The notes under the pieces: generated by a model
Told to the model about the DNA's origin: nothing
Database searches by the model: none
What the model saw: only the letters and a program-made list of their open reading frames with translations
Part shown: positions 7,141-10,372 of the stretch, piece by piece
How the letters are laid out: each line of letters starts with the position of its first letter
How positions within the stretch are numbered: position 1 is the stretch's first letter
Made by a program: the position numbers and the translations under genes
From: Plicaturopsis crispa FD-325 SS-3
Taxonomy: Eukaryota > Basidiomycota > Agaricomycetes > Amylocorticiales > Amylocorticiaceae
Assembly (NCBI GenBank): GCA_000827205.1
Contig: KN832554.1
Location: forward strand, 551,263-615,262
DNA: 64,000 nucleotides
Direction of reading: 5' to 3'

Positions 7141-10100
7141 ATGGCACACAGATACCAGGCGTTGAAGGACTCTGACCTCCCAGACGACCCACCCCCGATT
7201 CGACGCACGCGGAGCCGCCGATTAGTCCATGTCGGCTTTCTCGCGCTGTTCGGTCTTGTCGCGGTTCTCTCCGGAGCTTTCTACGCTCGCTCGAAGAATA
7301 ATCACTTTCCGCATCCCCCACCTCTTGCGTCGGAATCTCACGGCTTTTTGGAGGAGACACTGACCCAATGCCCGTCCAATTTCGCGCCCTCCGCGTCGCC
7401 GCCCGCACCGGTCAACATTTGGGCGCCCCTCACGGTTGCAGAGACTGCCGAGATTCACTCCTGGATATCGCAGGACGCACAAGCCTTCAATCTCACCTCC
7501 GCCGGGCAGTCAGACCTGTCTGACAACGTCATCTTCCTCGTAGAGGCACTTCCGCCACCGAAAGACGCTGCCCTCGCCTATCTCGACAGTCCAAAGGCCG
7601 TATCTCCCCCTGATCGTTACGCGCATGTAGCCATCCACCACGGCGCAGGGTTCAACGGTGGCCCACCAGTCATCAAGGATTGGAGAGTGGGCCCGCTACC
7701 CATCAGTGCAAAGACTAGGATTGAAGAACGAAGCGACGTGTATCACCGAGAGATTCCTCACAATGCCAGAGGCGTTCTCGGCCAGCCGGAATTTACCCAG
7801 TTTTTGGCTGGTGTTTTGCCTCAGCTCAAGGACGTCATGCAGGTACGTACTTTAGCTCCTATCGCTCTGTTGTAACCACGTTCCTACGTCGCATCTGTAC
7901 AGGATCTATTCAACGGCTCAATATCCGGCACGGCGAATGACACTCTTATTGCGGGCACTAGTGCGCCGTTTGGCATCGACGGTTCGTTCCGCCGTCTCTG
8001 GATCACCTTCCGACGAAACAAGGCTGGGCCATGGCTGCATCCTGTCAACTTCTTCATCTACTTGGATATTAGTGGCACGGACCGCTCGCTCTGGAGAGTG
8101 ATAAAGGTAAATCATGCTGCGCCGCTACTATCCGTCCCTTCGCTCAACAGTTCGTGCCATTAGCTTGTCTACAACCACCAAATATTCGCAACCGTCGATG
8201 ATCTCCTTACTGCCTACAAGAACAACACCATTGTCCGCCTCCCCCCACGGCCCGACCAATCGGCAGAGGATCCTTGGTCTACTCGTGTGCGCCCTGAAGG
8301 TGCGAAGCAGCGCGATTTGGACAACCTCCCCGGTCCCCGTGCGGTTAGCTTTGGGGGCCTGCGCTTCCGGATCGACCAGGCCACGAAATATGTGAGTTGG
8401 ATGGGCTGGGGGATGTACCTTGGATTCAACCGAGACATGGGGATGAACATCTGGGACTTGCGCTTCCGAGGGGAGCGCATTATCTATCAGGTGGGTGCAT
8501 CGAGGACGCTTTCGTCGATCTATACTGAGGACAGCAACTTTGCATTTCTAGCTGGCACCCCAAGAAGCGATCGCACAGTACGGTGCGTTGTATTGGGCAT
8601 TGCATCTCCGTAACATGCTGAACGTCTTTATCAACAGCTGGAAATGACCCTGGTCAGACCACGACCGCCTGGCTGGACAGCTACTTCGGCATGGGCACCT
8701 CCGTGCGGTCTCTCCTCCCTTCCTACGACTGCCCTGCAGAGGCAGTCTTCCTCCCCGCGACAACTTCTACTTACAGCGGCTCGACGACCATCAAGCGTGC
8801 TATATGTGTGTTCGAGCACGACACTGGACGTCCTTTGACCCGTCATACAGGGTGGATTAAGGGCGAGTGGGGGGCTGTCAGGGGATACGTTCTCGTTATC
8901 CGCAGTATCTCGACCGTTGGAAAGTACGTGGCTTGTTTCACAACGTTTTGAGAAACCATACTCATCGAATTCGTATGAACTAGCTATGATTACTGTAAGT
9001 CTCATGACGGATTCTCGTGAAGTGATTCTAATCTCGAATGATGTATCTCTCGTGCAATACTAGTGGCAAGTCCCTCCTCGTATATTCTTTGCATCCTCGC
9101 TGACGCCGTATACGTAGTTCGACTACATGTTCCATCTCGATGGAACGATCGAGGTGCGCCTCTCGGCATCTGGCTATCTCCAGGGAGGTTTCTGGGAACC
9201 CAAGCAATCTGGATATGGGACGCCGATTCGTGACACCACCAGTGCGTGCATCTCGCACTTTCTTTGTCGTATGCATACTTAACCTCATGTCTCGCAGTGG
9301 GCAGTCTACACGACCACGTCATCAACTACAAAGTCGACTTCGACATCGCCGGGACGCGGAACTCGCTCTTGAGCACGACGACCTCGCAGGAGTCCGTCAT
9401 GCAGCCTTGGCACGAGGACGACGAGTGGGGCCCAGAAGTCATCCAGCAGAAGATTACCCGCAAGTTTATCGAGAACGAGGACGATGCTCTGCTCAAGTAC
9501 CCCGCCAATTTCCAGGGCGGGTACTCCATCGTCAACCAAGAGGAGACCAACACATGGGGTACGCCGAGGGGATATGCGATCCATCCTGGGTGAGTACGAT
9601 TTCTGGATGCGGTGCGATAACGGGACTAACTTTGTGGCAGGTATTCTCCCATTCACAACGTGCGATCATGAACCTCATTATTGCGCGAGGCTTACTGACA
9701 AGCATTGCAGTCGGTCGTTGGTTCCAAACGCCTCTTAAACAACGCGAACTGGGCACGATACAATCTTGCCGTGTCGAAGCGTAAGGAGACCGAGCCATCG
9801 TCGAGCTGCATGTGGAATCTGCATCTTCCCGGGAAACCTGCAGTCGACTTCCACAATTTCTTCGACGGAGAGAATATTACGCAGGAGGATCTTGTTGCTT
9901 GGGTGAACATCGGAATGCACCACATCGTATGTCGTCCCCTCGATCTGTATTCCAATCGCTCGTCCGACTGACATCGGAAATTAGCCCCAAGCAGAGGACT
10001 CGCCCAACACGCGCACGAACACCGCGACTTCGAGGTAGCTTGTCTGTCGACATCCCCTTTGGATCGTATATTAACGCCATGCATTCATACAGTTTCTTCC

Positions 10101-10372
10101 TGACCCCGCTGAACTTCTTCGATTCGGACATCTCCCTCGACTCGACCAACGCCATATTGCTCGACCCGACGCCCCTTGCAGACGGCTCCTACGCCTTCAA
10201 CGACTACGGCGTTAAGCACACGCACTGCGTGCCTGACCCGCCAACGCCGTTCCATTACGAGCAGGAGGACCAAACTCCGTTCGACGTCAATGGCCGCCAG
10301 GCTACGTTTGGTTCCGTCGAGGACCAGAGGGCCGCGGCTGAAATGTACCATAGGATTAAAGTGGAGTTGTGA
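7141..10372 (+). CDS. Copper amine oxidase, N-terminally membrane anchored
   Basis: Thirteen predicted exons (847 aa): 7141-7842, 7903-8106, 8164-8490, 8552-8582, 8638-8923, 8984-8994, 9064-9065, 9118-9241, 9298-9589, 9641-9659, 9711-9926, 9985-10034, 10093-10372. A single hydrophobic helix (residues ~29-49, after RRTRSRR) suggests a type II membrane protein. The catalytic domain is complete: base Asp435 in TAWLDSYFGMG, topaquinone precursor Tyr518 in NYDY, and copper ligands His567/His569 in GSLHDH and His737 in HHIPQAED. The enzyme deaminates primary amines to aldehydes with H2O2 release. The topaquinone motif is on an 11-nt exon. The reading frame then needs a 2-nt exon (TG) ending in a GCAAGT donor; phase agrees before and after it. 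The gene family is certain; the two microexons are predictions. Confidence 0.9.

Follow-up and report, generated by a model that had tools for sequence, protein, structure and literature searches.

A predicted two-nucleotide exon in a copper amine oxidase gene

Exons of only a few nucleotides have been described in animals, plants and fungi. In the accessible portions of the papers cited here, earlier finds of 2-5 bp exons are recorded for Arabidopsis, Drosophila and humans (PMC12940212), and several exons that are shorter still are described. In Fusarium CYP621A P450 genes, a 1-nt exon followed by a GT donor (AGGGT) is supported by RNA reads and by 20 Fusarium orthologues (PMC12940212). In Arabidopsis, a 1-nt exon of APC11 was shown by reporter assays, and replacing that exon (A333) with TT created an engineered 2-nt exon that was spliced correctly in Arabidopsis and mis-spliced in rice (PMC4674806). 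A 1-nt exon is also described for plant VPS55 (PMC8831610). No 2-nt exon is named in the accessible text of the MEPDB paper (PMC12409088) or of a paper on Trichoderma microexons (PMC11121469), and a search of the open-licence literature on 2-nt exons returned, as matches by title, only an HLA-F paper and a genotype-phenotype database, which is no proof of absence.

Here we describe a copper amine oxidase gene that, in our assessment, quite likely contains a 2-nt exon, TG, between two short introns; a first-pass annotation had proposed this exon, and the analysis below supports it as a prediction. Gene structure and genome size lead us to judge the host a fungus, more precisely a basidiomycete. 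Like Fusarium CYP621A, this is a gene in which an ultra-small exon is needed to complete a codon within a conserved motif. The unsplit intron is also overlong in both cases (139 nt in CYP621A, over twice the median, and 123 nt here), and in both the exon was missed by annotation (PMC12940212, as far as its available text goes). The two cases differ in that the CYP621A exon is 1 nt long, precedes a GT donor and is backed by reads and orthologues, whereas the exon predicted here is 2 nt long and precedes a GC donor. The available descriptions of APC11 and VPS55 likewise show an ultra-small exon preserving the frame; these are plant genes, however, with longer intervening sequences (422 nt before splitting in APC11) and experimental proof. 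The P450 genes of Phanerochaete chrysosporium, a white-rot basidiomycete, are similar in having tiny exons and frequent introns of 45-55 bp, but their shortest reported exon is 6 bp, and no 2-nt exon is reported in the accessible part of that work (PMC1184071). Lastly, stwintrons of filamentous fungi, as described in the available text, also involve two small introns removed in succession by intron definition, but leave no coding base between them (PMC6616335), whereas two coding bases would remain here. Exons of 2 nt as such are therefore not new, and the present gene would join a known, very rare kind, of which 1-nt examples are proven in Arabidopsis and Fusarium; particular to it are a donor of the GC type and, next to the 2-nt exon, an exon of 11 nt.

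The gene and its residue spacing

The model spans the gene from its start codon to its stop, and all positions are those of the window, the entire 64,000-nt stretch of DNA that was analysed (Table 1). The exons are, in order, 702, 204, 327, 31, 286, 11, 2, 124, 292, 19, 216, 50 and 280 nt long. Introns 5, 6 and 7 all fall inside 13 coding bases, such that the 11-nt exon 6 is next to the predicted 2-nt exon 7; this juxtaposition of two ultra-small exons was absent from the first-pass annotation.

Table 1. Features of the gene, in window coordinates
Feature	Position	Strand	Description
Copper amine oxidase gene, coding part	7141..10372	+	13 exons, 12 introns, 847 aa plus stop; PF01179, PF09248, PDB relatives
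Exon 5	8638..8923	+	286 nt; last two bases are AA of the NYDY Asn codon
Intron 5	8924..8983	+	60 nt, GTACGT...CTAG
Exon 6	8984..8994	+	11 nt, C TAT GAT TAC T; holds the codon of the presumed TPQ-precursor tyrosine
Intron 6	8995..9063	+	69 nt, GTAAGT...CTAG; CTAAT branch candidate
Exon 7, predicted 2-nt exon TG	9064..9065	+	T|TG = Leu
Intron 7	9066..9117	+	52 nt, GC-AG type, GCAAGT...GTAG; CTGAC branch candidate
Exon 8	9118..9241	+	124 nt; begins FDYMFHLDG (TTC GAC TAC ATG TTC)

The predicted protein scores 416.8 bits against Pfam Cu_amine_oxid (PF01179; cut-off 27) and 30 bits against DUF1965 (PF09248). It matches 41 distinct PDB sequences at E <= 0.001, headed by 3pgb (E 2.9e-131), which is followed by two lysyl oxidase sequences (1n9e and 1rky) and then by membrane and liver amine oxidases. 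NYDY, HDH in GSLHDHVINYKVD, GMHHIP and AWLDSYFGMG align with the matching stretches of 3pgb, and NY[DE]Y, HxH with a distal His, and the catalytic Asp are all present. We take the NYDY tyrosine to be the precursor of TPQ, the HxH and distal His to be copper ligands, and the Asp to be catalytic. By its predicted protein, this is a copper amine oxidase gene, and the active-site residues to be expected are in place. A hydrophobic stretch near the N-terminus (residues 28-47, LVHVGFLALFGLVAVLSGAF), encoded within 7141-7842, suggests a membrane anchor or signal.

The case for the TG exon begins with the residues that follow NYDY. Exon 6 ends ...TAT GAT TAC T, leaving one spare base after the motif, and the next clear exon resumes in frame with TTC, as the first-pass annotation had observed. 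It had also claimed that two more bases are required here, and the homologues of known structure bear this out. Five PDB alignments (3pgb, 1n9e, 1rky, 1tu5 and 2c10) are gapless in this region, with a single residue (M, N, N, V and V, respectively) between NYDY and the next aromatic residue. Two paralogues in this genome, on C4 and C14, give NYEY-I-WNYMF once the parts on either side of their own intron are joined by eye. Since homologues have exactly one residue after NYDY, the codon begun by T needs two more bases. The TG exon would supply them, giving T + TG = TTG and hence the Leu that had been proposed as the inserted residue; TTG is used 12 times in the gene, the predicted instance included. 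The predicted join reads AAC TAT GAT TAC TTG TTC GAC TAC (NYDYLFDY), and the predicted 24-mer spanning it is CTATGATTACTTGTTCGACTACAT. Exon TG is thus needed both for the reading frame and for the residue spacing of the family. With the exon in place, the phase is right in every later exon, also as claimed, and the frame is open over 847 codons up to the stop (848 codons including the stop, in an otherwise intact gene).

The paralogues have their own introns at this motif. In C4 (L011:2846-2903) there is a 58-nt phase 1 intron at NY|EY, a position that differs from those of all three introns near the same motif in the window gene. The C14 paralogue (L009:1689-2458) has an intron of ~860 nt at NY|EY that holds a 770-bp palindrome, consisting of two 385-nt arms that are 89% complementary and have no spacer. 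The palindrome occurs at six full-length places in the genome, its own included, with 72-100% identity, and the C14 copy of the oxidase gene looks, by eye, degenerate in its reading frames. A DNA search found no second copy of 8638-9241 in its own genome. We also looked for signs of a duplication or introner origin of the two introns, and rejected this idea; the local alignment scores of pairs 5/6, 6/7 and 5/7 were matched by 441, 945 and 475 of 1000 shuffles, respectively.

A single 123-nt intron and other splice paths

The letters and boundaries of the proposed split proved to be as the first-pass annotation gave them (Table 1), and the two branch-site candidates claimed for it, TCTAAT in intron 6 and GCTGAC in intron 7, are present with 32 nt and 14 nt, respectively, after the branch A. 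Both introns flanking exon TG thus have spliceosomal ends (GT-AG and GC-AG), usable lengths (69 and 52 nt) and CTRAY candidates; the other ten introns of the gene are all 51-61 nt long. The simplest departure from the TG-exon model is a broken gene, in which a real deletion or an assembly deletion has removed two bases at the junction, 8995-9117 is a single 123-nt intron, and the protein is frameshifted and truncated. The GTAAGT at 8995 and the GTAG ending at 9117 are usable, and a blind gene finder joined them. In a coarse intron set from a third-order de novo gene model (eight rounds, uniform length prior; 104 introns, of which 100 lie elsewhere than in this gene), the median length outside the gene is 59.5 nt and 73 of the 100 introns are 45-75 nt long, but 17 of the 100 are at least 115 nt, and an intron of 123 nt is therefore conceivable in this genome. 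Nonetheless, we consider a broken gene unlikely. Exactly two bases would have to be missing, and right at the edge of an intron, from a gene whose 13 exons are otherwise intact; a 1-base error could not yield the family spacing. The first-pass annotation had noted that a single intron would exceed the others in length and break the frame; it would indeed be twice as long as the other ten, and joining 8994 to 9118 loses the frame immediately after NYDY, with a stop after 38 codons.

Were the gene broken, it would also be coincidental that the stretch can be split as CTAG|TG|GCAAGT and that each half has a branch site. As a control for chance, we used 197 further GT..YAG stretches of this genome, each 123 nt long. 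In 45 of the 197, an AG|NN|GT-or-GC split leaves at least 45 nt on either side, and in three such a split has site scores no lower than those here; a Leu, Ile, Val or Met codon arises in none of these three, nor does any of them carry CTRAY branch sites in both halves, such that no control reproduces the arrangement at equal site scores (0/197). When exons of all lengths between 2 and 32 nt are counted, rescue is common, occurring in 117 of the 197 controls (23 at equal site scores), and the weight of the case for the TG exon therefore rests on homology fixing the insert at two bases.

The search for other splice paths, run over 8850-9150, allowed at most three introns, each with GT-AG or GC-AG ends and 40-200 nt long, with acceptors before 9118 and with the product in frame and open. 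GT donors alone gave 80 such paths, none of which has NYDY. Allowing GT or GC donors gave 220, of which one has NYDY, namely the TG-exon model; one further path keeps YDY (GDYDYLFDY), and it combines another intron 5 with the same TG exon. A second search covered 8898-9150 with up to three splicing steps, nested introns allowed. It reached 586 sequences, the unspliced one included, and a single product keeps [NGY]Y[DE]Y and DYMFHLDG; this product is reached by either order of intron removal. Among GT/GC-AG introns of at least 40 nt, nested ones included, the TG-exon model is thus the only path found in which the frame is open, NYDY is present and a single residue separates it from FDYMF. Its local fragment also has the best Pfam score of seven models (144.6 bits, against 60.9-136.8 for the six alternatives), the form that skips TG scoring 94 bits and the five other in-frame forms 120.3, 135.0, 116.9, 60.9 and 136.8 bits.

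Several of these other forms are open and in frame, and could in principle be used instead of the TG exon: a 190-nt intron at 8928-9117 that joins GKY to FDYMF, a 16-nt exon at 9064-9079, a GA-AG intron at 9006-9117, or the loss of 8806-8923. The 190-nt intron would remove the TPQ tyrosine (120.3 bits) and has a 0.3-bit donor. The 16-nt exon retains NYDY (135.0 bits), and came from a search with two GT/GC-AG introns of at least 30 nt and acceptors up to 9150, which found two further NYDY paths; both have a 38-nt intron, a 16-nt exon, a poor first donor (-6.1 bits, GTCTCA, and -4.2 bits in the variant) and the wrong spacing, placing extra residues inside a motif that is gapless in the family. 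Single introns from exon 6, whatever their end dinucleotides, give 342 open, in-frame paths, none of which is a GT-AG or GC-AG intron with exon 6 kept. Across the six end classes viewed, there are four paths (two GT-AC, one AT-AC and one GA-AG). Of these four, only the GA-AG path retains FDYMF; it keeps NYDY (136.8 bits), but puts four residues after it in place of the family's single one. To our knowledge, GA-AG is not a common spliceosomal class. Loss of 8806-8923, the form chosen by the blind gene finder, scores 60.9 bits. Taken together, we regard these forms as very unlikely to be the true product.

We also considered a stwintron, in which an inner intron would split a splice signal of an outer one and all 123 nt would be removed in two steps. 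Two consecutive small introns are what is described for fungal stwintrons (PMC6616335, from its available text), but neither a donor nor an acceptor is reconstituted across 8994/9064, removal of the full 123 nt leaves the frame broken, and the nested search gave no other product with the motif. We reject this reading as extremely improbable.

Splice-site quality and gene finders

Site matrices were built from 75 de novo introns of at most 80 nt outside the gene. With GC set at 1%, the GC donor at 9066 scores 1.6 bits, which is below all 75 reference donors because GC was given only that 1%; with position +2 omitted, G|GCAAGT lies at the 56th percentile of the same donors, and it matches the GC-AG U2-type consensus. 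Two of the 224 GC dinucleotides in the gene, that one included, score as high as the 9066 donor. The acceptor at 9063 scores 2.4 bits, at the 1st percentile of the 75. Equally low sites that are supported by homology occur in the same gene, at donor 10035 (1.1 bits) and acceptor 9710 (2.5 bits).

Blind gene finders did not choose the 2-nt exon at realistic intron costs; these penalised GC donors, none of which were in the training set. A run with far too low intron costs chose it, among many spurious tiny exons. The blind finder skipped both 8806-8923 (118 coding bases) and the 2-nt exon and thereby stayed in frame, although the protein of the dropped 118 bases aligns to solved structures. Augustus likewise does not recognise GC-AG introns, according to the accessible text of one report (PMC5677156).

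Proposed splicing and its significance

We propose, with fairly high confidence, that this copper amine oxidase gene has a constitutive TG exon and that the GT-AG and GC-AG introns on either side of it would be removed stepwise. Each small intron would be recognised singly, by intron definition, and the two would be removed in succession, because splicing factors could hardly occupy the two sides of so small an exon simultaneously. One-by-one recognition is probable for introns of this length; it is argued for filamentous ascomycetes in the available part of one study (PMC6616335), and an average intron length of 56 nt is given for Cryptococcus neoformans in that of another (PMC11913375). If intron 6 were removed first, the transcript would read TACTTG|GCAAGT, with the next donor intact; if intron 7 were removed first, the acceptor would remain intact as CTAG|TGTTC. 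Since the signals of the remaining intron would stay whole after either removal, stepwise splicing would work in both orders, and both would yield the same NYDYLFDY join. At no point would the 2-nt exon itself have to be recognised as one, and skipping it would cause a frameshift and a truncated protein. We infer that the cell uses the TG path, and uses it constitutively, as we do the order and efficiency of splicing.

A more far-reaching version of this proposal, which we offer tentatively and think doubtful, is that a 2-nt exon that is natural and constitutive, and has a GC donor, lies beside an 11-nt TPQ exon, that obligatory stepwise splicing would put the motif together out of four exons, and that the efficiency of the weak GC donor might set the amount of active enzyme, inclusion giving active and skipping giving truncated protein.

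Gene-prediction programs tend to miss exons of this kind, and the present gene illustrates one way in which annotation goes wrong: by dropping 118 coding bases, a simple gene finder stayed in frame without the 2-nt exon. The case is easy to check, since with introns this small and so strict an active-site motif there is just one in-frame GT/GC-AG solution. Exons of one or two bases, very few of which are documented in the literature consulted, probe the lower limit of recognition by the spliceosome, and the TG exon predicted here would be one of them.
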